In this document: positions 4,594 to 29,511 of the stretch, one piece after another
How positions within the stretch are numbered: the stretch's first letter is position 1
Layout: each line of letters opens with the position of its first letter
Assembly (NCBI GenBank): GCA_025499705.1
Contig: JAFMVE010000033.1
Coordinates: forward strand, 1-64,000
Direction of reading: 5' to 3'
Length of the DNA: 64,000 nucleotides
From: Carboxylicivirga caseinilyticus
GTDB lineage: Bacteria; Bacteroidota; Bacteroidia; Bacteroidales; Marinilabiliaceae
Notes under the pieces: generated by a model
The model's input: only the letters and a program-made list of their open reading frames with translations
Told to the model about the DNA's origin: nothing
Databases searched by the model: none
Made by a program: the position numbers and the translations under genes

Positions 4594-7500
4594 TTACACA
4601 TCATTTCTAACCAAATCTTCGTCTTTCGGTTTGAATAATTTGTTGCGTGCTCTTACTGCCAGGTTATACATTACCGGAGCCATAATAAGGGTAAGAACTG
4701 TTGAGGTTGTTAATCCAAAAATAACAGTCCATGCCATTGGCGACCAGAAATCAGCATTATCACCTCCGAAATAAATGTTTGGATCGAGCTTTTCAAATAA
4801 ACTGAAGAAGTCGAAATTCAAACCAATAGCCATTGGTATTAGTCCTAATACGGTAGTAATGGCTGTTAGTAATACAGGTCGAAGACGTGTTTTACCAGCT
4901 CGAATGATACTGTCAATTTCTTCCTGACGTGATAATCGGCCATGTTCGCTCATTCCCAGTTCATCCTTCTTCTGTTTTCGTACCAGATCGATGTAGTCAA
5001 TTAATACAATACCGTTGTTAACCACAATACCGGCCAACGATACAATACCCAAACCTGTCATCAGGATAACGAAATCCATTTTGAAGGTTCCCAATCCCAT
5101 AAATACACCAATGGTACTTAGTCCAACAGTTCCAATGATGATTAATGGCTTGGCTCCCGAATTGAATTGGGTAATCAGAATCATTGCAATTAAGGCCAAA
5201 GCAAACAGTAGTGCTCCAACCAGGAAGTCTGCTGTTTCCTGTTGATTTTCCTGTTCACCGGTCATTTTCCAGGAGTAGTTGCCGGGCATTGTATATTCAT
5301 CAAGTAAAACACGAATTCTTGCATTTATCTCATTGGCATTGTAACCTTCAATTACGTTTGAACTTAATGTGATTACCCTTGTGTTGTCAACACGAATAAT
5401 CTTTTCGTAAGTCGATGCATATTCATATGTAGCTACAGCCGAAATAGGAATCAGATGATGAACACCATTTTTATCTACTTTTAGTTTTTGATTCATGAGA
5501 GTAGAAACATCATTGCGGTATTCGTCTTTTAAACGAAGCATGATATCAAATTCATCCTCACCATCTTTAAATTTGCCGATCTCTTTACCATAAAGAGAGG
5601 TTCGCAAAGCCATTGCTACAGCCTGTGTTGAAAGGCCCATTCGACGAACCTTATCACGATCGATAAACATTTGCATTTCTGGCTTATTGATGTTCAGATC
5701 CATTTCCAGGTTTTCGATTCCGGGAATATGGTCTTCATCGATAACACGTTTAATGTCAGCTGTTAAATCAATTAGCTTTTCATAATTGTCACCGCCAATT
5801 TCGATGTTGATAGGTTTACCAACAGGAGGTCCGTTATCTTCTTTTTCAATAAAGAATTTCGCACCCACAAAACCTTTAAATGCATCCGTTAATTTAGACA
5901 TTATTTCACGGGTGCTGTGTCCGTTTCGATACTGATAATCAACAAAGGTAATGGTGGTAAGTGATTTGTTGGGCGAACGACCTGAATCGAATAAACCACC
6001 TTTTCCGGTTCCAACACTAACTCCTACAGACTTAATAATATCCATGTAAGGATCCAGTGTTTCGTACAGAATGTTCTCGGCATCCACAGTTACCTGATCT
6101 GTTACTGATATGTCAGTACCCAAGGGTAGTTCCATGGTAACGTAGATAGTTTGAGGTTCATTCTGAGGGAAAAACAATACTTCTGTTTGTATCATTCCAT
6201 AAAAAACAATTGAAAACAGAAACAAGAATATAGATCCGCCAAACAACCATTTACTGGTTCTGCGACCTAAAGCTTTACGAAGTGTATTTTCGTACTGGTT
6301 TTCGAGAAATGGTAAAAATGTATGCTGAAACCAGATAGCAGAAGGTTTTAGCACATATTTATTAAGTGCTGTAATCAATAAAGGAAGAATGAGGATATTA
6401 CCCCATAAGATGCTTCCCGACAAATATGCAATAACACCTAAGAAAGCAATTGCGCCTGTTACATAAAAATATTTCCGAAAGCTTTTTTCTTCTTTAACAT
6501 CTTCCAGCTTCATAAAATTAGAGGCATAGGCAGGATTAAGTACCAAGGCCACAAAAAGTGAAGAGGAGAGTACTATGATTAATGTAACTGGTAAATAGCT
6601 CATGAACTTACCCACAATACCAGGCCAGAAAACCAATGGAATAAAAGCCGCCAGCGTAGTAGCAGTTGATGAAATAATTGGAATAGCAATTTCGCTGGTT
6701 CCGTTCTTCACTGCCTTGGACGGTTTGACCCCATGCTCCATCATCCGGTACACGTTTTCAATAACCACAATGGCGTTATCCACCAGCATACCCAAGGCCA
6801 GTACCAGCGAGAAAAGAACCATAGTATTGATAGTATAGCCTATCTGTTTCAGAATCATCATAGAGATGATCATAGACATTGGTATGGCCAGACCCGAGAA
6901 TATGGCATTACGTAAACCTAAGAACATGTATAAAACGATCATAACAAAGATCATCCCCAGAAAAATGCTGTTCTCAAGATTGGTAATCTGGTCGCGAACA
7001 AACACCGACTGATCATCTGTAACAGTGATGGTCAAATCTTTTGGTAACGTTTCACTCTCTTGTTTGTCTTTGATTATACCTAGAATCTTATCCGTTGCAT
7101 CCAATAGGTTTTCACCACTTTTTTTCACAATCGAGAGGGTTACAACCGATTTATGGTTTAACCTTGAGATCGAACTCTGTTCTTCAAAACCATCAATTAC
7201 ATCAGCCACATCTTTAATGTACACAGCACGGCCATCCACTTCCTTTACGATGGTATTGCGGATTTCTTCCATGTTGGTGTAATCAGCTTGTACACGAATG
7301 GATCGACGGGTACCATCTACCTTAACTTCGCCGGCACCAACTGTAAAATTCTCAGTCTGAACAGCCAGTTCAATATCCATGAAGCTAAGGTTGTATGCTT
7401 CCAATCGATAAGGATCCACATGGATTTTAATCTCACGCTCATCAACACCACGAATATCTGCTTCACGAACTTCGCGCAACGTTTCAAAATCGTCCTGTAG

Positions 7501-18746: not shown

Positions 18747-20195
18747 TTATAACTTGAAGAATGATACTATTTCCTTGAATTGTTGTGCCTGTGAGTTTAG
18801 TTCTCTGGCACTGGAAGCCATTTCTTCTGCTGTTGAAGCATTTAATTGAGTTGATCGGTTTAATTCGATTATACTTGAATTAATCTGCTCGCTACTAATA
18901 TTTTGCTCATTACTGGCTGCATTTACTTCCTGACTCAATTCTGCTGTCTTTTCAATTTCTGGTAAAGTCCTTGATACTAATTCAACAGCCTCAGCTGTTA
19001 CTTTAACTGAGGAGCCTGATAATCTGATAATTTCATCGGCAGCTTTGGTGCTTAAATCTGCCAGTTTTTTCACTTCACCAGCTACAACAGCAAATCCTTT
19101 CCCCTCATTACCAGCCCGGGCTGCCTCAACAGCTGCATTAAGAGCTAAAATGTTAGTTTGACTGGCAATGTCATTAATAATAATGATCTTATCTGAAATA
19201 CTTTGTATCGACTCCATACTTTTGTCAGCCGAGTTTCCCACGTCCTGCATGGACTTATAAGCAAGTTGTGCCTTATCACGTGTTTGACCACTCACCATCG
19301 TATTTTGCTGGATCGAAGCTAACATTTCCTCCATCGCGGCTGATACTTCTTCAATAGAGCTGGCTTGTTCGGTTGCAGCTTGTGAAACAATTAAAGAATT
19401 TTCACTAATCTTTTCTCCTGTTTTGGCTAATTGATCGGCACCAGAAATAATGGTTTGAAGTATCCTTCGCATACTTTCAATCATTTTCTGTATGCTAAAT
19501 GCAATCTCCCCAAGTTCATCATTATTATTTATCTCAATGTCTGTACTTAAATCTCCTTCAGTAATTTTTTTACTTGCTATCAAAATGTTATTAATAGACT
19601 TACTGATTTTCCGGATTACTATTATACCTAATACTATCGCTATTATGGCTATGATAATACTAAATCCGGAAATCTGAAATATTGATTTTTTGACATTGGA
19701 GTATACTGGTGTTAAACTTGATGAAACAATAAAAAGACCACGGATATGATCTCCGGATGATACACTTAGACTCTGGTTCTGATTATGACAGAAGGCACAG
19801 TTTTGTTCTTCAGAGTAGTATACCGGTCTGATAATCTTCATCTCACTTGAATTTTCATCAATGATTTTCAGATTATTCAGATCACCTTCAGAAAGTGTTT
19901 TTTCATATTCAACTTCTTCTGGTGTGGAGTTGTGAGCTTCATTTAGAGCGTTCTGAGATACAATGCGAAAATTGTAGGAACTGTTCAAAGATTCATTATT
20001 ATCTTCTGACATACTACCATCTGTATGATATCTTAAGAAATGAACGGTGTATAAATCTAAGATGTCATTACTTTTGGTTTCAAGATCTTCGAGTCCCTGA
20101 TCATAAATTCTGAATGAAGATACAATAAGTGCAATTACTCCACTGGCTACAACAGGAAGAATCACAAGGAATATTAGTTTTCTTTTCAATGACAT
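18747..20195 (-). CDS. Methyl-accepting chemotaxis protein with periplasmic CxxCH (c-type haem) sensor domain
   Basis: 482 residues. One transmembrane helix (about 8-28), a periplasmic domain of about 140 residues, a second helix (about 172-195), a HAMP domain, and a cytoplasmic signalling domain with the conserved hairpin tip ([26 protein letters not shown]). The periplasmic domain contains CAFCH at about residues 132-136 with PVYYSEEQN before it, like haem-binding DUF3365/Tll0287-type sensors that detect redox state or diatomic gases. It would signal to CheA/CheW elsewhere in the genome. It lies 148 bases downstream of a cytochrome c gene on the same strand. The haem attachment is inferred from the motif. 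Confidence 0.9.
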
Positions 20196-20343: not shown

Positions 20344-20757
20344 TTAATCGTTCAGTGTACGCACGAAGTTCACAACTGCCCACTTATCTTCTTCGCTTGG
20401 AATTAGTTTTAAAAAATCAGGTCTGTTTTCTATACCAATAAATGATAAGTAATAAATCTCACCATCTGTATATTGATCCATTTCTGGTAAGGTTAAATCG
20501 CCTGGTGAAACTTTCATATTCTTAGCCATCACTCCATCTCCTTTACCTTTTTTTCCATGGCATGATACACAATGTCGGTTGAAGTTTCGAAGTCCTATCA
20601 TTTTAAGAGATTCATCTCCCTTATAAGGATTTTCTTTCTCTACAAACTCTTTTGGAACCTCCTTTTTCTTGTAATCTTGATTATCTCCTGGGATAAACGA
20701 CATGGATACTGTGAGAATAACACTGAATCCCAGGATAAGAATGAAATTTTTTTTCAT
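20344..20757 (-). CDS. Small periplasmic cytochrome c
   Basis: 137 residues. The signal peptide or anchor (about 4-22) is followed by a class I cytochrome c domain: haem site CVSCH at residues 63-67 and GKKGKGDGVMA after it. Methionines at MAKNMK and PEMDQ are candidate sixth ligands. It should carry one haem and move electrons in the periplasm. It is the last gene of a three-gene set (lipoprotein cytochrome, DUF5777 barrel, cytochrome c) with gaps of 15 and 24 bases, and precedes the haem-motif chemoreceptor. Confidence 0.88.
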   Translation of the reverse strand: MKKNFILILGFSVILTVSMSFIPGDNQDYKKKEVPKEFVEKENPYKGDESLKMIGLRNFNRHCVSCHGKKGKGDGVMAKNMKVSPGDLTLPEMDQYTDGEIYYLSFIGIENRPDFLKLIPSEEDKWAVVNFVRTLND

Positions 20758-20781
20758 ATTATGTAATTTTAAATTTTGGTA

Positions 20782-21660
20782 CTAAAAATTATATAAGCGT
20801 GTAATTGTAAAACCAAATTTAAGCTGACCATCTAACCAATCATTCTGATTAAACATGGTGTTATGTTGTGAAACAAAATTGTCGGAAGAAGAGGCAAACA
20901 ACTGAAATACATGTGCACTAGTTCTAATTTCCCATCCAATTCCAACATTTGGCTTAGGATGGTCCACAAATTCACGATGCTCTGTAATAGAGTTTAATTT
21001 TAAAGGGTGATCGTATTGAAATATAATGGAGTATTTGTAATTAATGGCAATTCGACCGTTAACTCCAATTGAAATTTTATCATGGTCAATTTCAAGGTCA
21101 GTTTTATTATAATGTGTAAAACTACCGTTGGCTTGGATTGTCATGAGTTCCCCGAACTTTCTGCTAAGAATAATTTGAGAGAAATAAGCAAGACGATTCT
21201 TAAATGTGTAATTTTTTCCAAATACATCTTTGTCACGAGCATCAATTGCACAATTTGCATATAAGGTAATGGCAACAGGCATAGAATTTTGTCGGGTTTG
21301 TTCGGCAATAGTGTATTTAACTGAAAAATCACTATACATCCTATGTTTACTTAATCCATATCCAATTTGCATATTTTTAATTGGAACATAGTTTATCCCC
21401 ATTCTTATTGATGCTAAAGGTGCATAGATGCCAAATACATCTTTAAAACCATTATCCATTGTCCCAAACTTATGCTGTATCACATATTCAAATGTGTTCT
21501 TAACGGGGACAAAAGTAGTTTGGTTATCTAATAAAACTCCACTAAGAAAAGGTTCCCTGACTGGAAGATCTTTGGGTTTATCATTATTCGGGGTTTCTTG
21601 CTGTCCCCATAGCGAAATGAATGTGAATGATAATAATATTATAGGAAGGATTCTTTTCAT
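20782..21660 (-). CDS. DUF5777-type outer-membrane beta-barrel protein
   Basis: 292 residues with a signal peptide (cleavage near LWGQQ). The mature part is almost entirely beta-strands, with family-like stretches NTFEYVIQHKFGTMDNGFKDVFGIYAPLASIR split between about residues 55 and 90, and GWEIRTSAHVFQLF near the end. In Bacteroidota this family often sits beside cytochrome c and haem proteins, as here between two cytochrome genes. Its role is not known. A barrel that docks or shelters the cytochromes is only a guess. Confidence 0.75.
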   Translation of the reverse strand: MKRILPIILLSFTFISLWGQQETPNNDKPKDLPVREPFLSGVLLDNQTTFVPVKNTFEYVIQHKFGTMDNGFKDVFGIYAPLASIRMGINYVPIKNMQIGYGLSKHRMYSDFSVKYTIAEQTRQNSMPVAITLYANCAIDARDKDVFGKNYTFKNRLAYFSQIILSRKFGELMTIQANGSFTHYNKTDLEIDHDKISIGVNGRIAINYKYSIIFQYDHPLKLNSITEHREFVDHPKPNVGIGWEIRTSAHVFQLFASSSDNFVSQHNTMFNQNDWLDGQLKFGFTITRLYNF

Positions 21661-21675
21661 AGTTTTAAAGGACGT

Positions 21676-22056
21676 TTAATTATTCATGGCACCTTGTTTA
21701 ATCCAATTAAATACTAACGCAGCCTGGTATGGAGTATATTTCTTATATTGGTGACCATTATAGGTTGGATTAGGATATTGGTAAATAAGACTTAGAGATG
21801 GATCTTCTTTATTGATGAGATCTGGAACAATTGAACTATAGGCATTATCCCGTCGTAAATCAATTATTGATCCATTTGAATGACAGGCTGTACAAGAATT
21901 GTTGTCAAAGATTGGTAGTATCTCATCCGAAAAGCTAACCAGAACAGTTTCATTTGGCAGATCAATTTCAACATACTCGTATTGGCAATTACTGAGAAAG
22001 CATACTGAAAGAAGGAAGATAAATAAAAATGCTGGTTTGGTTACAAATCTATACAT
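21676..22056 (-). CDS. Lipoprotein with a single cytochrome c-type haem motif
   Basis: 126 residues. The lipobox is FLSNC with Cys at about 24, and one CTACH haem site is at residues 55-59. The C-terminal motif FNWIKQGAMNN is typical of short cytochrome-like lipoproteins in Bacteroidota. It should be membrane-anchored and carry one haem. It is the first gene of the cytochrome/DUF5777 set. Confidence 0.8.
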   Translation of the reverse strand: MYRFVTKPAFLFIFLLSVCFLSNCQYEYVEIDLPNETVLVSFSDEILPIFDNNSCTACHSNGSIIDLRRDNAYSSIVPDLINKEDPSLSLIYQYPNPTYNGHQYKKYTPYQAALVFNWIKQGAMNN

Positions 22057-22864: not shown

Positions 22865-22893
22865 AAAAGCCACCTCAAAATAGAAGTGGCTTT
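22865..22893 (-). terminator. Terminator of the sugar-oxidation operon
   Basis: AAAGCCACCTC pairs with GAAGTGGCTTT (one mismatch) and T residues follow on the minus strand. It lies about 50 bases after the last gene of the operon. Confidence 0.7.
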
Positions 22894-22944: not shown

Positions 22945-23181
22945 TTAACTTCGACGTACTATTTTGAGTATTACCCAATAAAACAATCGGATTATTGCGA
23001 TTGCAATATATAGAGTACAACTTATTGCTATTACAAAACCCAATGAACTATACAATTCGCTCCATTGAGATTGATATTTAATGATGGAATATATATTAAG
23101 GCCAAATGATATGCCAAGGAGAAGTAGCCAGATAATCATTTCTCTGCGGATATTTTTGCTTTTTATTGTGATGTCTTTCAT
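22945..23181 (-). CDS. Small two-helix membrane protein of a Gfo/Idh-linked family
   Basis: 78 residues from the ATG that begins MKDITIKSKNIRRE, a start familiar from small Bacteroidota membrane proteins; alternative starts at 23214 and 23220 would abut the previous gene. Two hydrophobic helices (about 17-35 and 48-70) end in a basic tail (KIVRRS). It follows the Gfo/Idh gene closely and is probably translated with it. The function is unknown. Confidence 0.7.
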   Translation of the reverse strand: MKDITIKSKNIRREMIIWLLLLGISFGLNIYSIIKYQSQWSELYSSLGFVIAISCTLYIAIAIIRLFYWVILKIVRRS

Positions 23182-23222
23182 AATTCTTCTGATTTGAGTT
23201 ATACCAAATTCCATGAACAATT

Positions 23223-24497
23223 TTATCCGATCAGATATTTATCAGGACATGTGATTCGCTCACCTGATTCTATGGATTTCTCAGTTAATAGTGACCAGAT
23301 ACTTGTATAATAACCTTCTTTTGTCATCCATTCAGGGGATGATTTTTGCTGGATATAGTCTATAAAATGAACGATTTCCTCCCGGGTTCCATCTCCATCC
23401 TGACCTTTGTAAATCTCTTCACCATTGTAGCTTACGGCTGTTTCTGCGGCCCAACTTGAACCTCCGATGGGAGCACTTTTAAAGAGACCATTCTGAATGT
23501 CATTAATCAATTGAGCAATACCTGGTGCAGGTTCGGGTTTAATTGGGTCTTCCCGTAAAATATTATTTGACTCTAATTTCATAGTCGCATAATCACCAAT
23601 TATATGTTCTTCACATCCTTCGGCTTTGTTAATAGTCATTGAGTCATAGATAAATTGGGTACCATCATCATATGAAAAAATGGCTGCCATATTATCGGGT
23701 ACTTCCCTTCCATCTTTATAATATTGAATACTACCTGTAGCCATAACAGAAACAGGGTATTTCTTCATTGCCCAATTCGCAACCTGTAACTGATGAGACA
23801 TTAATTCGGTTAAAAGGCCGGCTGAATATTCTTTATAAAGTCTCCAATTAATTTTGCGCTCCAGATCAGGTTGATTATCCGGTACATCCCGTCTCCAATT
23901 ATGATTTCTGTGCCAATAGGCTTTCATCTGACCAATGACTCCAATTTCTCCATTGTGAATTCGCTCCAAAGCATTTATATACTGATTACTATGAAGCCGT
24001 TGATGCCCGATCAATAGGATTGATCCGGAATTTATATGAGCATCATACATAGCCTTCGTATCATCCAGAGTACGAGCCATAGCTTTCTCACACAATACAT
24101 GAATACCTTTGTTCAGGCAATCGATAGTAATATGAGCATGTTGGTGCAAAGGAGTGGCAATAATAACACCGTCAACCGGGCTTTGGTTGATTAATTGGCT
24201 ATAGTCAGTATAGGTTTTGGGATTAATTTTATATCGTTTCGCTAAAGCAACTGCTTCATTTAAGCTTGGTCCGTAATTATCACATACTGCAACAAGTTCA
24301 TAATTAGGATTCACTTTTTGAGCCAGGAGAAGTTCCATAAGATATCTTCCTCGACTACCGGTTCCGATAACAGCCAGACGCACTTTCTTATCGCTGGCTA
24401 AGGCCGCAAATGTTCTGCCAAATGGAGAAGCAGCTAAAGCCAAACCGGCACCTGCTATGGCAGTTTTTTTTATAAAATCTCTTCTGTTTCCCTTCAT
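23223..24497 (-). CDS. Tat-exported Gfo/Idh/MocA-family oxidoreductase
   Basis: 424 residues from the ATG beginning MKGNRRDFIKK; the alternative TTG four codons earlier is unlikely. The twin-arginine signal (RRDFIKKTA) implies export of the folded, cofactor-loaded protein. The Rossmann motif is VRLAVIGTGSRGRYL. The usual EKP of the substrate site is CEKAMA here, with the lysine kept and proline lost. Family members oxidise or reduce sugar hydroxyls with tightly bound or free NAD(P). In this operon (DUF1080, a second Gfo/Idh, ApbE) it probably oxidises the C3 hydroxyl of a glycoside or reduces the released keto-sugar. Confidence 0.88.
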   Translation of the reverse strand: MKGNRRDFIKKTAIAGAGLALAASPFGRTFAALASDKKVRLAVIGTGSRGRYLMELLLAQKVNPNYELVAVCDNYGPSLNEAVALAKRYKINPKTYTDYSQLINQSPVDGVIIATPLHQHAHITIDCLNKGIHVLCEKAMARTLDDTKAMYDAHINSGSILLIGHQRLHSNQYINALERIHNGEIGVIGQMKAYWHRNHNWRRDVPDNQPDLERKINWRLYKEYSAGLLTELMSHQLQVANWAMKKYPVSVMATGSIQYYKDGREVPDNMAAIFSYDDGTQFIYDSMTINKAEGCEEHIIGDYATMKLESNNILREDPIKPEPAPGIAQLINDIQNGLFKSAPIGGSSWAAETAVSYNGEEIYKGQDGDGTREEIVHFIDYIQQKSSPEWMTKEGYYTSIWSLLTEKSIESGERITCPDKYLIG

Positions 24498-24526
24498 GGA
24501 TATTTTCAATGATTAGGTTGTGTTAA

Positions 24527-25330
24527 TTAGGCTGAAAATGAGTTGTACAATACTTTCCTGACCTTGAAATTTTCTAGTATTTGAGAATGCTTTTCAATGG
24601 GTGCTGCAATTAGAGCTGTTGATAACACTTCGGCACTTATAGGGTCATCAGTTACAACACAAACAGTCCTTTTTGATTGGCATAATTGACCTGTTTTAGG
24701 ATTCTTGATATGAGCCATTCCATTATGTAATCCACTAATGGAAATACAATCGTTTGTGAGTTGCAGTTCTTCATTAATTCCGTTCTGAGATTGAAATGAA
24801 AAAGGCCAATATTCTCCAAATGGATGCCTTCCAACTGTTAGTACTGAACTTTCGCCAAAACTAACCAATGCATTTTCGATCCCATATAATTTTAAGATGT
24901 TACGAACATGAGCTAAGGCAATTCCCTTGCCAATTGCACCAAAATCCAGTTTGATGTTGTCATTCAAAAACCTGATCCCGGATGTATTATTATTTAGTTG
25001 TAAATCATTCCTCTCTGTAAGGTCTTCATTCATTCTACCTTGATAGCAAACATCGAAGTAACCTTCTGTAAGATTTTTAAATTCAATACAACTTTCGATT
25101 ACTTTAAATAATACGGAACTAACTTTTAGTTCTTTTTTAAATGCATTTTGGTTTACGTAAAAGGTCTCTGCCTGAGAATCAAAACGACTAAAAATTCTTT
25201 CCAGATCAATAGTTTTTTTCTTGATTTCCTCAAAAACCTCACAATGCAACGAATAGTCATTTCCCCATAATACAACATCCATACGGGTATTCATCGACAA
25301 AAAGGTTTTATGAAAAAGATTGATATTCAT
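24527..25330 (-). CDS. ApbE-like FAD:protein FMN transferase, divergent
   Basis: 267 residues. ApbE enzymes attach FMN from FAD to a Thr/Ser of target flavoproteins. Recognisable motifs are LDFGAIGKGIALA (residues about 127-139), NALVSFGESS, SGLHNGMAHIKNPKTG and SAEVLSTAL. In the last, the usual metal-binding Asp is replaced by Glu. There is no signal peptide or lipobox, unlike most ApbE, so it should act in the cytoplasm unless exported with a partner. It lies between the two Gfo/Idh genes, 29 bases before the second. No target with an FMN-binding domain is visible nearby. Confidence 0.82.
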   Translation of the reverse strand: MNINLFHKTFLSMNTRMDVVLWGNDYSLHCEVFEEIKKKTIDLERIFSRFDSQAETFYVNQNAFKKELKVSSVLFKVIESCIEFKNLTEGYFDVCYQGRMNEDLTERNDLQLNNNTSGIRFLNDNIKLDFGAIGKGIALAHVRNILKLYGIENALVSFGESSVLTVGRHPFGEYWPFSFQSQNGINEELQLTNDCISISGLHNGMAHIKNPKTGQLCQSKRTVCVVTDDPISAEVLSTALIAAPIEKHSQILENFKVRKVLYNSFSA

Positions 25331-25352
25331 TTTGATACAATAAAAAGTTAAA

Positions 25353-25387
25353 AGCCTATCTCACTGAAGTGTAAGATAGGTTTTTGT
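25353..25387 (-). terminator. Intra-operon hairpin between the first Gfo/Idh gene and apbE
   Basis: CCTATCT pairs with AGATAGG, with T-rich stretches on both sides, in the 68-base gap. It could be a partial terminator that lowers expression of the downstream genes. Confidence 0.5.
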
Positions 25388-25398
25388 GTTTTTTAAGA

Positions 25399-26727
25399 TT
25401 ATATTTTGGGTTCCCAGCCCTTTTCGTATTCACGTTTCCAGAGTTTAGCTGCTGCTTTGTTGCCAACTACCTTTCCTGTAGCAGGATCAATCTTAAGACT
25501 CTCTCCAACCTCTTGAGCTATATTACCCAAATGGCATAACTGAGTTGAAATTCCTGCAGAAGCGATAGGCGATTTTAGTTGCTCATTGGTACGTATAGCA
25601 TTGGCGAAATTCTGAATATGTTTGACTGTCAATCCATCAAATCCGGATAAATCAGCCGTGTTATTTGAAGTACCTTTATGTTGTTCGTTTACAGTTTTAA
25701 TTTCTCTTCCTCCAAGATCATATAAAGTATATTTCTCTCTATTCAAATGCATTGAACCTTTGGTCCCGTATATATAAACTCCACGGCCGCCTCCTTTGTT
25801 AAACCCATTACAGCTGTTGCCTTCCCATGAAAGCATTTTACCACCCTCAAACTCATAACTTGCCAATTGTGTATCAAACCATTCCCAGTCATCACCTTTG
25901 TAATGAAGTCTTCCTCCGGTTGAAACAACACGAATAGGATAGTCAACACCTAAAGCCCATCGGCAAATATCAATTTCATGGGTTCCGTTATTATGTATTT
26001 CTCCCGTGCCCCAGGTCTTAAACCAATGCCAGTTATACGGATGCACATTATCTCTGTAGTTTTCACGTGGAGCGGGCCCTTGCCATAAATCCCAATCAAG
26101 ATGGTTGGGAACAGATACTACTTTTCCTGTACCAATAGGACCTCTGGTATTGGAATAAAATGCTTTTGCATTATAAACGTCCCCAATTAGGCCGTCACGA
26201 ATATCTTTAATAGCAATGGATGAACTCTCAGATGATCGTTGTTGATTGCCCATTTGAACCACTTTTTGATATTTTGCCTGGGCAGCAATAAGCAATTCTG
26301 TTTCATATGGATTGTGACTACAGGGTTTTTCGACATACACATGTTTACCAGCCTGTAATGCCATTATCGCCATCGGGGCATGCCAATGTTCAGGTGTTGC
26401 AATTAATATTGCATCTACATCCTTCTTCTCAAGAACTTTTCTAAAGTCTTTTTCCAATGATGGTTCATAGCCCAATGTTTTATTGCAATAGTTCTTAAAA
26501 TCATTTAACCTGTTAGAGTCAACATCGCATGCGTAAACTAATTTGATGTTACTGGCAAGACCAATCGATTGAGCTAAAGCATAAGAGCGTCCGCCTGTTC
26601 CCAGGATGGCTGCATTAACAGTTTCATTGGAGCCAATGATGTTGGCATACGCCTTTGTTGAACTCAGTAAACTGATACCTGCCATGCCAAGGGCTGTATT
26701 TTTTATAAAGTTTCTTCGTGTTGTCAT
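25399..26727 (-). CDS. Tat-exported Gfo/Idh/MocA-family oxidoreductase
   Basis: 442 residues. Twin-arginine signal (RRNFIKNTA), Rossmann motif (AAILGTGGRSYALAQ), and the catalytic-site lysine in VEKPCSHNP. Further family features are ATPEHWHAPMAIMAL and the C-terminal GWEPKI ending shared with many Bacteroidota glycoside-linked oxidoreductases. It is probably periplasmic. It follows the DUF1080 gene by 82 bases and most likely makes or consumes a 3-keto-glycoside. It keeps EKP, whereas its partner at 23223 has EKA, so the two are probably not redundant. Confidence 0.9.
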   Translation of the reverse strand: MTTRRNFIKNTALGMAGISLLSSTKAYANIIGSNETVNAAILGTGGRSYALAQSIGLASNIKLVYACDVDSNRLNDFKNYCNKTLGYEPSLEKDFRKVLEKKDVDAILIATPEHWHAPMAIMALQAGKHVYVEKPCSHNPYETELLIAAQAKYQKVVQMGNQQRSSESSSIAIKDIRDGLIGDVYNAKAFYSNTRGPIGTGKVVSVPNHLDWDLWQGPAPRENYRDNVHPYNWHWFKTWGTGEIHNNGTHEIDICRWALGVDYPIRVVSTGGRLHYKGDDWEWFDTQLASYEFEGGKMLSWEGNSCNGFNKGGGRGVYIYGTKGSMHLNREKYTLYDLGGREIKTVNEQHKGTSNNTADLSGFDGLTVKHIQNFANAIRTNEQLKSPIASAGISTQLCHLGNIAQEVGESLKIDPATGKVVGNKAAAKLWKREYEKGWEPKI

Positions 26728-26809
26728 TTTAAATAGAAAATTGGATTTAATATGTGAAATGCATTCATGACTTTGTTATGTAAGTTATACAGTATATTCT
26801 CAGGGTTTT

Positions 26810-28174
26810 TTATAGTTCCTTTATTTTAATATTCTTAAAGTGAACTTCATCACCATGGTCCTGAAGTAATATCAGGCCTTCCTCGGCTTCTCCAAAGCCC
26901 GGCCATATACTATATTTGCTGTAAGCAACCAAAGCTCTCCATTGTTGTGTGTTTCGTACATACTCAACCACCTTGCAGCCGTTTAAGTAATGTTCCACTT
27001 TTTTGCCATTAACAACAATACGGGCTCTGTTCCAATTATATTGGTTTACATATTTCAATGGGCCAAGCGATGGAATATATTCTCTGCCACTTGCTTTTAT
27101 CAGGTCGTAGAGTGATCCTAAAGTGCGGTTACCATTAACTCCTTTTTTAGCATCAGGGTGAATATCATCATCTAAAATCTGGAACTCACATCCGATGGCA
27201 GAACCTTTATCTTTATTTAATTCGGTATTTACAAAATATTTAATTCCACTGTTGGCTCCTTTGGTAAATTTAAAATCGACTTCCAGAATAAAGTTTTTAT
27301 ATGCCTGAGTGGTTACAATATCGCCCCCATTTTCAGATTCAGCTCCTCCTGATGATTGTACGGATAAAATTCCATCCTGAATGGTCCAGCCATTAGTTGG
27401 AAAATCGTCAAGTTTGGCTCCGCGCCAACCTTGTGTTGTTTTTCCATCCCAAAGTAGGTTCCAACCGTCAGCGGTCTCATTTTTTGTCAGAGTATTCTTT
27501 AAGTAGCTAATTTCAGGAGCTGTTGTTTCAAATTCATAATCAGCTGGAATCTCTTTAATGGTAATATTTCTCCAGCGTGTTTTTTTACCGATTGATTCGC
27601 CCCCGGCAGAGTGAACCTGTAAAGCCACAAATCCAGTCTCAATTTCTTCTTCAATCAGATTAGCAATGTTTACCCCATTCAACCAGGTTGCGATTCTGTT
27701 ACCTGCAGCAATCACTTTTACCTTATTCCATTCCTGGTTTTTATACGCCGTTTTAACTTCTGGATTATACTCAACAGGATACCGCCAGTTATTTCGGCTT
27801 TGATCATAAATACCTCCAGACCATCCGCGGGGTGAATCATCGGCTTCAACCTGTGGCCCATAAACACTATGAACTCCCCTGGTCTTGTCATATTGACTTC
27901 GAATCTGCACGCCACCGTTGAGACCGCCATCCATTTTTATTTCATATTCAAGAATGAAGTTGGTAAATTGTTTTTTGGTAGCAAGGTAGGTACTTGGAGA
28001 TCCTTCGGTTGTTATTCCAACAATAGCGCCATCTTCAACTATATAAGTGGCATGTCCGTTAAGTGGTTGCCAACCTTTAAGATTTTTTCCATTAAATAAT
28101 TCTTTTGAACTTTTTTGCGCTTGTATCGAAAGAGCAAAAATGAAAAGGATAGAGACAATACTTCTTATTTTCAT
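26810..28174 (-). CDS. Two-domain DUF1080 protein (putative 3-keto-glycoside hydrolase/lyase)
   Basis: 454 residues with a signal peptide (cleavage near SIQAQ). Two DUF1080 lectin-like domains are in tandem: about 24-200 ([12 protein letters not shown] start, [15 protein letters not shown]) and about 237-453 ([14 protein letters not shown] start, GANSGIKYF). DUF1080 proteins are known to cleave sugars that carry a keto group at C3. This should therefore be the bond-breaking enzyme that follows oxidation by the Gfo/Idh partners. It is the first gene of the operon, divergent from the membrane-bound regulator. Substrate specificity cannot be read from the sequence. Confidence 0.88.
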
Positions 28175-28242
28175 ATCATACTTGAGTTAACTGTTAAAAA
28201 ACGAATGTTTTTAAATTTAACTCAACTAACTTATTAAAAGCG

Positions 28243-28282
28243 GTTTTTACGTTGTTTTTACCCTTGTTTTAACGGTTAAAAC
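28243..28282. promoter_or_regulatory. Repeat-rich operator region between the sugar operon and its regulator
   Basis: GTTTTTAC occurs at 28243-28250 and 28254-28261 (11-base period), followed by GTTTTAAC at 28266-28273. The last forms a perfect palindrome with GTTAAAAC at 28275-28282. Spacing of 11-12 bases suits winged-helix dimers. Confidence 0.55.
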
Positions 28283-28298
28283 ACAAGACTTAAGGTCT

Positions 28299-28306
28299 TA
28301 GTTTTG
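28299..28306 (+). promoter_or_regulatory. -7 promoter box of the membrane-bound regulator gene
   Basis: TAGTTTTG is an exact TAnnTTTG match 45 bases before the ATG at 28351. It lies 17 bases after the palindrome, so a bound regulator would affect its own transcription. It rules out the GTG at 28306 as a start. Confidence 0.5.
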
Positions 28307-28350
28307 TGAGGATTGTATTTTTTGTTTTCTTTACATTTAAGAAGATCCTA

Positions 28351-29511
28351 ATGATTACAGAACAAGACAAAAAAGAAACGTTAAAACGCATACTTGGTAG
28401 TAAAACATTCTCAAAATCGACTACCACTAATGTTTTATTAAAGTTTCTTGTTGAGAAGTCGATCCAGGATGCAGAAATTACAGCAGCCGATATCGGTCAT
28501 GAGATTTTTGGTGCGCGATATGAACAGGAAAAAAGTGAAGCTACTGTCAGGGTTAATATTTACCATTTACGAAAAAAACTAAAGAGATACTTCGAGGAAG
28601 AAGGACAGAATGATCCTATCGCTATTTTTATTGAAACAGGGCAATATAAAGTAAGTTTTAAAGAGGTAACAAATGGCAAATCTGGCAGAAAGAAGCCTGT
28701 TTTTTCCATTATACTGGCATTCTTCTTTATCCTTTTATTGGCCGTATTATTTTTAATTAGCAGTAAGCCAAAAGATAGAATATGGTCGTCTATTTTTAAG
28801 AACAATTATCAAAATACATTATACTTAAGCCCCATTTATGGCTATTCAGGTCCCGGACCAGGCGGCAGTTTTATCTTTCACAGAGATACACGTATTAATT
28901 CTGACCTCCAACTACAAAAGATGTTGGATTCCCTTAATCTTCCTGAAGATAGTTATGAACCAGCCTGGAATAATTATGTCACATTTGAAGATGCTGCAAC
29001 ACTAAGACATTTCTCTCGATTATTCACATCTCACAGAAAAGATTTTGCAGTTAGAAGAGCTACGGATTTTTTAATAAGTGATATAAAAGACCAAAATATT
29101 ATTTATTTGAGTCCAATGCGTTACCATACGCAGTTCAGAGATGTGTTTAATGAATTCTCAACTAATATAAAGTTGTCGGGTAATATTGCAGACAATGTCT
29201 ATATTAGTTATACTGGTGATGAATCAAAAACTGACTCAACATGGAAGTTGAAATCAGACTCTAGAACCTTTGAACATGCTATTGCGGCTAAATTTAAAGG
29301 TTCTAATAATACCAATCATATTATGTTTTTTGCCGATCATGGATTGGGACTAACTGCCATGGCAGAATTCTTTACCAATGAAGATTCCATTCGATCATTC
29401 TCCGATAAACATCTCAAAGAAACAGAGGAGTTTATTGCCTTATTCTATGTGAGTGGTAAGAATCGAACAAATCTGGATCTTAAGCTTATACTATTGGATG
29501 ACAATAAGTAA
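28351..29511 (+). CDS. ToxR-like membrane-bound winged-helix regulator
   Basis: 386 residues from the ATG supported by the promoter. The N-terminal DNA-binding domain (about 1-100) has the OmpR/ToxR-like end VRVNIYHLRKKLKRYFEEEG and IETGQYKVSF. One transmembrane helix follows (about 116-137, FSIILAFFFILLLAVLFLIS), then about 240 residues outside the membrane of unknown fold (YGYSGPGPGGSF near its start). This layout lets a periplasmic signal act directly on transcription. Being divergent from the DUF1080 operon, it most likely senses a sugar or keto-sugar product and controls that operon. Confidence 0.85.
   Translation: MITEQDKKETLKRILGSKTFSKSTTTNVLLKFLVEKSIQDAEITAADIGHEIFGARYEQEKSEATVRVNIYHLRKKLKRYFEEEGQNDPIAIFIETGQYKVSFKEVTNGKSGRKKPVFSIILAFFFILLLAVLFLISSKPKDRIWSSIFKNNYQNTLYLSPIYGYSGPGPGGSFIFHRDTRINSDLQLQKMLDSLNLPEDSYEPAWNNYVTFEDAATLRHFSRLFTSHRKDFAVRRATDFLISDIKDQNIIYLSPMRYHTQFRDVFNEFSTNIKLSGNIADNVYISYTGDESKTDSTWKLKSDSRTFEHAIAAKFKGSNNTNHIMFFADHGLGLTAMAEFFTNEDSIRSFSDKHLKETEEFIALFYVSGKNRTNLDLKLILLDDNK

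Follow-up and report, generated by a model that had tools for sequence, protein, structure and literature searches.

An ApbE-like protein without an export signal and a small membrane protein accompany a Tat-type Gfo/Idh oxidoreductase in a putative glycoside C3-oxidation operon of Carboxylicivirga caseinilyticus

How can a sugar dehydrogenase that depends on nicotinamide adenine dinucleotide (NAD) stay active in the periplasm, a compartment not expected to hold a pool of free NAD? To our knowledge this is an open point of the keto-glycoside pathway. It is raised by a locus of Carboxylicivirga caseinilyticus, which lies in positions 1 to 64,000 of contig JAFMVE010000033.1 (assembly GCA_025499705.1); this whole stretch of 64,000 nucleotides is referred to as the window. 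Between 22945 and 28174, five genes on the minus strand are arranged in the transcription order DUF1080 protein, GfoA, ApbE-like protein, GfoB and small membrane protein, and a divergent plus-strand regulator gene faces this operon. The six genes had been proposed by an earlier reading of the letters of the window (the sequence-only reading) and are all recovered as open reading frames (ORFs), with three starts moved downstream. The reading favored here, with a probability of roughly 0.42, is that GfoB, the ApbE-like protein and the small protein form a dedicated trio for maturing GfoB, and possibly for connecting it electrically, within a predicted operon for periplasmic C3 oxidation.

The trio occupies the second half of the operon. 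The ApbE-like gene (24527-25330, minus strand) encodes 267 aa, GfoB (23223-24497, minus strand) is a Tat-type (twin-arginine translocation) Gfo/Idh oxidoreductase of 424 aa, and the small membrane protein (22945-23181, minus strand) has 78 aa and two hydrophobic segments. Start codons were set by homologue alignment. Three starts had originally been called too far upstream and are corrected to 23181 for the small protein and 24497 for GfoB, both ATG, and to the ATG at 28351 for the regulator.

Named bacterial genome records were scanned with a profile of the GfoB alignment, and the best 80 of 547 relatives were taken as loci. With thresholds of 550 bits for GfoA, 450 for DUF1080, 40 for the small protein and 150 for ApbE, the ApbE subfamily occurs in 75 of these loci (74 at >=150 bits plus an edge fragment in L101), the small protein in 73 and both in 68. 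A DUF1080 protein of the two-domain class occurs in 42 loci, any DUF1080 in 49 and GfoA in 40, some loci being cut by contig ends. The ApbE and small proteins are the most constant partners of GfoB, with DUF1080 and GfoA in about half of the loci. The sequence-only reading had regarded the two as non-standard additions, a view that these counts do not support. According to their record titles, the loci span Bacteroidota and some lineages close to it, with Marinilabiliaceae, Prolixibacteraceae, gut Bacteroides, Dysgonomonas, Chitinophaga, Balneolaceae, Ignavibacteria, a KSB1 metagenome-assembled genome (MAG) and others, many being MAGs. Conservation of the neighbourhood beyond close strains, a check set beforehand, is seen in that the set is found in many Bacteroidota genera. 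Several Bacteroides loci have the same set in the rearranged order GfoB, small protein, Gfo, DUF1080, ApbE. In B. cellulosilyticus (L119) the gene set follows a GH2 gene and a gene of the hybrid two-component system (HTCS) cluster and precedes a SusC-type TonB receptor.

The linkage extends to whole genomes. A sample of 295 Bacteroidales genomes (thresholds E<=1e-120 for GfoB, E<=1e-45 for ApbE and E<=2e-20 for the small protein) contains 18 genomes with GfoB, 20 with the ApbE subfamily and 20 with a clear small protein, plus one with a weak match to it (G674). All 18 GfoB genomes carry the ApbE subfamily, with a hypergeometric probability of 7e-27 when genomes are treated as independent. GfoB was found in 15 and the ApbE subfamily in 16 of 184 Bacteroidales genera. 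In 16 of the 18 genomes the two genes lie on one contig; in G521 and G719 they are on separate contigs, with GfoB at a contig end. The small protein is present in 17 of the 18. In a sample of 71 genomes of the family, GfoB occurs in 23, the same 23 that hold the ApbE subfamily. The ApbE-like query matched a 24th genome (G025) only weakly, the match being an ApbE with a hydrophobic N-terminus (L033). GfoB adjoins ApbE in 22 of 22 loci from relatives of the family (L011-L032). Sixteen of these have DUF1080 and GfoA upstream, one is cut by a contig end and five are without DUF1080. In those five a different set stands between GfoA and ApbE, which in L052, the example scanned for domains, consists of a PF16490 Gfo/Idh and an AP_endonuc_2 TIM barrel. 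Since gene order is conserved in relatives, the locus is more than chance, and a chance neighbourhood is rejected by the genome-wide co-occurrence. Within the genus GfoB is present in 3 of 14 genomes; the operon is accessory. A phylum search that matched 252 of 395 genomes counts all kinds of ApbE, its alignment having held three ordinary ApbEs, and was not used as a subfamily count.

Protein distances also diverge together. The correlation is 0.73 for GfoB and ApbE (n=74), 0.72 for GfoB and the small protein (n=73) and 0.68 for ApbE and the small protein (n=67), and none of 999 permutations reaches these values. Shared ancestry of whole genomes contributes to these correlations. A literature search, in which subscription papers were incompletely covered, found no report linking ApbE with Gfo/Idh or DUF1080, and the words 'Gfo' and 'DUF1080' are absent from the main texts of two surveys of ApbE gene clusters (PMC8238504, PMC11334425).

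The ApbE-like protein scores 104.9 bits against PF02424 (cut-off 25.6), in agreement with the sequence-only reading. Its AlphaFold2 model is confident, with a predicted local distance difference test (pLDDT) score of 92.0. The first 39 Foldseek matches of the model are all ApbE-type, the best being Listeria FmnB (7f2u, TMq 0.80), and the match after those is a DUF375 protein (E 7.6e-4). In the ApbE tree, one split with a support of 0.758 holds all 86 subfamily tips. The window protein itself has no export signal in its sequence. A hydrophobic N-terminus is not seen in 83 of 85 subfamily ApbEs and is seen in 18 of 26 other ApbEs, where the two groups were split by score with four named exceptions and the L101 edge fragment was counted among the 26.

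The active site of the subfamily is altered. ApbE catalysis is described as using a Ser-His-Asp triad (PMC12052999, section 7). By alignment, S241, H257 and D285 of V. cholerae ApbE match S199, H207 and E234 of the window protein. The serine is conserved in 75/75 subfamily ApbEs and in 21/21 ordinary ApbEs, a set picked by hand. The triad aspartate is replaced by glutamate in 75/75 subfamily members and in 10/10 further ones; of the 21 ordinary ApbEs, 15 have Asp, five Asn and one Gly. The general-base histidine is kept in 64/75 members (and 9/10 further ones), replaced by Asn, Ala or Ile in the other 11, and present in 21/21 ordinary ApbEs. A new histidine (H169) in a G-x-H-P-x-G stretch is found in 75/75 and 9/10 subfamily proteins and in 0/21 ordinary ones. 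S199, E234 and T238 are all present in 75/75. The pattern suggests re-tuning of an enzyme or binding protein, not decay.

Two side observations touch this family. ApbE homologues in L162, L164, L166, L170, L171 and L174 have a subfamily-like G-x-S-[ST] with the normal Asp; four of the six are without a hydrophobic N-terminus, and they are possibly the closest relatives of the subfamily. The ApbE of L144, whose gene adjoins that of the small protein (5811-6913) on an 8.8-kb contig without GfoB, has the Glu, but Ser in place of His169.

The protein might instead be an ordinary cytosolic flavin mononucleotide (FMN) transferase with its target elsewhere in the genome, merely co-regulated with the operon. 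Its PF02424 score well above the cut-off and its ApbE fold are consistent with this, as is the cytosolic ApbE of Klebsiella pneumoniae, which is described in the available text of PMC12052999 as flavinylating a soluble fumarate reductase. However, the near-perfect linkage and co-divergence with GfoB over many genera, together with the change of Asp to Glu in all 75 members, weigh against this reading, and a target elsewhere is considered quite unlikely.

GfoB passes the twin-arginine signal profile TIGR01409 with a score of 22.6 against a cut-off of 16.7, and its relatives conserve R6 in 78/78 and R7 in 77/78. The sequence-only reading had called both Gfo/Idh proteins of the operon twin-arginine proteins. 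This holds for GfoB; in GfoA the RR motif is visible, but the score of 13.8 is below the cut-off. GfoB contains a PF01408 domain with the E-K pair and the downstream His. E138 and K139 are present in 80/80 relatives, E232 in 80/80 and H236 in 79/80, and these are presumably the positions of Gfo/Idh catalysis. The C-terminal segment of GfoB has [S/T]-W in 80/80 proteins and G-A-[S/T]-W in 47/80. The window protein reads G-G-S-S-W, and its [S/T]-W is Ser348-Trp349 counted from the corrected start (352-353 in the earlier numbering). Written as a regular expression, the segment matches 46/80 GfoB proteins, 0/81 other Gfo-like frames of the same loci and neither Gfo/Idh of L061, a second locus of the source genome described below. 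This expression is a weak control because it misses 34 of the 80 GfoB proteins. The [S/T]-W segment is a candidate acceptor site, and no more than that.

The acceptor motif of flavinylation is given as D-x-x-[ST]-G-A-[ST] in the available text of PMC12052999. Standard flavinylation of an operon protein was rejected, the motif not having been found in the operon proteins scanned. In a bolder form of the trio reading, GfoB would be the first sugar dehydrogenase of the Gfo/Idh type to carry a covalent nucleotide modification (flavinylation). An ApbE of a new, cytosolic class would put FMN, or part of another dinucleotide, on the conserved Ser/Thr of [S/T]-W before Tat export, and the two-transmembrane (2-TM) protein would pass electrons from bound NADH through this cofactor to quinone, providing a respiratory outlet for periplasmic breakdown of 3-keto-glycosides. 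We consider this stronger claim unlikely.

The small protein has conserved residues E14, N29, I33, E42, Y58 and R65. It matches no Pfam family at E 0.1 and has no established Pfam or PDB relative. Its weak matches are scattered, the best being one of 20 members to UbiA (E 0.00026). Flavinylation at its loop Thr was considered and rejected, as this position is not invariant (T in 59 and S in 7 of 73, and neither in L144). The simplest reading of the small protein is a membrane partner of GfoB. As a separate observation, a lone small-protein gene lies between unrelated genes in L175 (7001-7237, genome G045) without GfoB or such an ApbE, and is perhaps a relic.

Several results weigh against the trio reading. 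GfoB occurs without ApbE in the fetched flanks of L096 and L127; ApbE is also missing near a contig end in L099, L129 and L133. The small protein is missing in 7 of the 80 loci (L066, L112, L113, L116, L118 at a contig end, L123 and L141), four of the seven being from Balneolaceae, and in one of the 18 GfoB genomes of the Bacteroidales sample (G727). The partners are also found apart from GfoB. In G739 ApbE adjoins the small protein without GfoB on a short contig. In G746 ApbE lies apart from two copies of the small protein at contig ends, and in G045 the small protein is alone beside unrelated genes. Across the 80 loci, D-x-x-[ST]-G-A-[ST] was found in none of 73 small, 80 GfoB, 40 GfoA and 42 DUF1080 proteins, nor was it found in the operon proteins of the window. 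No Ser/Thr, Cys or His of the small protein reaches 90% conservation. The replacement of the general-base His in 11/75 ApbEs is evidence against plain FMN transfer by the lineages concerned, and this loss does not track changes of the GfoB motif, so that a coupling of the two was rejected. Linkage by itself does not establish that ApbE acts physically on GfoB.

The ApbE-like protein may instead bind flavin adenine dinucleotide (FAD) or NAD without covalent transfer and serve GfoB before Tat export as a chaperone for cofactor loading or proof-reading, like a redox enzyme maturation protein. Such a role fits an ApbE without an export signal beside a partner with conserved twin arginines, the replacement of the His in some members while S199, E234 and T238 are invariant, and the missing flavinylation motif. 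Cytosolic maturation chaperones for Tat enzymes are known (available text of PMC3316669), and Tat carries folded, cofactor-containing proteins. However, since the His is kept in 64 of the 75 members and Ser199 in all, catalysis may well be retained. A purely chaperone-like protein is doubtful, but deserves serious weight. A dedicated maturation role for the ApbE-like protein before export is favored because the linkage of ApbE and GfoB is strict, because Tat carries folded cofactor proteins and because the active site is altered. The ApbE step itself may be covalent flavinylation, another nucleotide transfer or cofactor loading.

The proposed mechanism is as follows. GfoB would be a Tat-exported Gfo/Idh of the NAD type. 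Before it leaves the cytosol, a divergent ApbE-like protein dedicated to it would mature it by loading a flavin-type (or other dinucleotide-derived) cofactor onto it or attaching one. The 2-TM protein would then keep GfoB at the inner membrane, possibly connecting it with the membrane electron pool. C3 oxidation, and re-reduction of the 3-keto sugar once released, would fall to GfoA and GfoB. The keto-glycoside would be cleaved by the DUF1080 protein, or in some relatives by the PF16490 Gfo and the isomerase-like TIM barrel. Of this picture, the parts, their linkage, the signal sequences, the ApbE clade with its altered active site and the conserved GfoB segment are observed. NAD use, an effect of ApbE on GfoB and what the small protein does are inferred, and the pathway chemistry is proposed by analogy with homologues.

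The first two genes of the operon point to that chemistry. The DUF1080 protein (26810-28174, minus strand, 454 aa, 3-keto-glycoside hydrolase/lyase type) matches Pfam 3keto-disac_hyd (PF06439) in two stretches with 288.9 bits against a cut-off of 26.8. Its N-terminus is hydrophobic and signal-like as read from the sequence, in agreement with the two-domain protein with a signal described by the sequence-only reading. Its closest solved chain by sequence is 4jqt_A (E 4.9e-161). GfoA (25399-26727, minus strand, 442 aa) has a twin-arginine-type N-terminus and conserves E133, K134, N247 and H250 in 23/23 aligned rows. The two Gfo/Idh proteins score 72.3 and 63.2 bits for GFO_IDH_MocA (cut-off 24). 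In the available text of PMC9007349 and PMC11300592, BT2157 is a 3-ketotrehalose hydrolase with a DUF1080 domain, BT2158 is a periplasmic glycoside 3-dehydrogenase, and a DUF1080 role in a route of C3 oxidation and cleavage is proposed for CCNA_01705. The window operon looks like an accessory operon for periplasmic breakdown of glycosides by C3 oxidation. The periplasmic C3-oxidation route suggested by the sequence-only reading is thus supported by homology to these proteins, except for the ApbE-like protein, which is not itself part of a periplasmic route because it has no export signal.

The operon could also be an ordinary variant of the BT2156-BT2160 pathway in which the ApbE and small proteins are mechanistically unimportant. 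The enzyme classes are the same. The source genome (5.65 Mb in 145 contigs) has two ApbE genes, on contigs C68 and C72, and in a separate locus a Gfo/Idh that passes BT_2158_fam with 894.1 bits against a cut-off of 750. This BT2158-type locus lies on contig C145, which has no ApbE; such pathways therefore do without ApbE. However, neither Gfo/Idh of the window belongs to these families. GfoA is a distant relative of BT_2158_fam at 163.2 bits and GfoB scores 77 bits, and for BT_2159_fam (cut-off 650) GfoB reaches 27.8 and GfoA 22.5 bits; therefore, membership in the BT2158 and BT2159 families was rejected for both. The DUF1080 protein and GfoA are also the less constant members of the loci (42/80 and 40/80 vs 75/80 for ApbE and 73/80 for the small protein). 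An ordinary variant is considered improbable. Since its Gfo/Idh proteins miss both cut-offs and a BT2158-type locus exists separately, the window operon is a second, different system in this genome, with what is likely to be similar chemistry.

The BT2158-type locus (L061, 7138-12591) consists of a TIM barrel, a DUF1080 protein, the BT_2158_fam Gfo/Idh, a second Gfo/Idh and a DoxX-like protein. The isomerase-like AP_endonuc_2 TIM barrel, which we take to correspond to BT2156, is absent from the window operon in the Pfam scan and present in the relative L052. Enzymes near single relatives include GH2 near L119, GH3 and PL8 near L134, GH88 near L139 and a sulfatase near L065, which suggests several glycan substrates; GH106 lies near L096, a locus without ApbE.

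The gaps along the operon are 82, 68, 29 and 41 bp, the last counted from the corrected start. Just downstream of the small protein gene, an intrinsic-terminator-like hairpin followed by U residues (22866-22893, minus strand) has a folding energy of -16.9 kcal/mol (z -3.81), and none of 200 shuffles is equally stable. It is not among the calls of a separate terminator list, probably because full extension of the stem leaves a short tail, and it is probably the end of the operon. The divergent intergenic region of 176 bp (28175-28350) is the expected site of putative promoters for the operon and the regulator. It contains one TAnnTTTG on the plus strand and zero on the minus strand. The promoter scan gave 13 sites against a shuffle mean of 21.2, that is, fewer than shuffled DNA. 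A hairpin of ten pairs in the gap between GfoA and ApbE (25355-25380, minus strand) could lower expression of the half of the operon with ApbE, GfoB and the small protein; sites like it are near chance in the region (6 found vs 3.8 expected, sd 2.1).

The regulator (28351-29511, plus strand) has a winged-helix N-terminus with a weak match to PF00486 (Trans_reg_C, 18.7 bits vs a cut-off of 26.2), one strong transmembrane segment near residue 118 and a C-terminal domain of about 240 aa. Foldseek gave no confident fold for this domain from a weak model (pLDDT 70.2); the best match had an E of 5.4e-3, and a fold for the sensor domain was not used. The sequence-only reading had proposed control by a ToxR-like one-component sensor, but this is not the commoner type. 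Of the 80 loci, 26 contain a hybrid two-component cluster (c0) and 5 the cluster of the window regulator (c7); not every copy adjoins the operon, and the HTCS domain content was read from one protein of a family locus. The homologues of the regulator are divergent beside the operon in L064, L069 and L095 and lie elsewhere in L065 and L077.

Downstream of the operon, at 20344-22056 (minus strand), small cytochrome c-type genes flank a DUF5777 beta-barrel gene. The one with CVSCH has a Pfam cytochrome c match, and the one with CTACH was assigned by its motif alone. Beyond it a methyl-accepting chemotaxis protein (18747-20195, minus strand) has MCPsignal and HAMP domains, a CAFCH motif and a Tll0287-like match below the cut-off, and is possibly a c-type heme sensor. 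No SusC-size ORF was found among the ORFs at 20-33 kb (ten of them domain-scanned), and a SusC/SusD pair, the mark of a polysaccharide utilisation locus, is accordingly missing there.

Breakdown of glycosides by C3 oxidation with DUF1080 and Gfo/Idh proteins is an already known pathway, and the results suggest that the association of the ApbE-like and small proteins with GfoB is the new part. Their tie to one exported dehydrogenase suggests that such enzymes may be made or powered in a manner not yet described. A cytosolic ApbE-like protein of this kind would be a concrete, testable answer to the periplasmic NAD problem. If the reading is true, the reach of ApbE would extend past the known acceptor motif, and an unnamed family of small membrane proteins would receive its first assignment. 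This would be relevant to gut Bacteroides as well as to marine relatives.

The closest known pathway is that of BT2156-BT2160 in Bacteroides thetaiotaomicron, part of whose gene content is presumed here for comparison. The likeness lies in DUF1080 and Gfo/Idh proteins and in C3 oxidation of a glycoside followed by cleavage (available text of PMC9007349 and PMC11300592). Unlike that system, the window has Gfo/Idh proteins whose best scores are 163 bits (cut-off 750) and 28 bits (cut-off 650), a two-domain DUF1080 protein, no isomerase in the operon, and ApbE-like and 2-TM proteins. The lactose 3-oxidation of Caulobacter by LacABC and DUF1080 is alike in its periplasmic C3 oxidation and in the proposed use of DUF1080 for cleavage (available text of PMC9007349). 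It uses the membrane dehydrogenase LacABC, whereas the window operon uses Gfo/Idh proteins. The cytosolic ApbE of Klebsiella pneumoniae likewise has no signal peptide, a likeness by description alone (available text of PMC12052999); unlike there, the protein linked to the window ApbE is a Tat-type Gfo/Idh without the flavinylation motif. The ordinary ApbE FAD:protein FMN transferases (V. cholerae ApbE, Listeria FmnB and T. pallidum Ftp) are alike in fold (TMq ~0.8), in PF02424 and in the Ser, and their His is kept in most members of the window subfamily. The subfamily differs from them in having no export signal (83/85), in the change of Asp to Glu, in the new His169 and in that no standard acceptor motif was found in the operon. 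The Zymomonas glucose-fructose oxidoreductase (1h6a) is a sequence relative of GfoB (67.2 bits) and an exported Gfo/Idh with a tightly held cofactor. We know of no ApbE or 2-TM partner for it.

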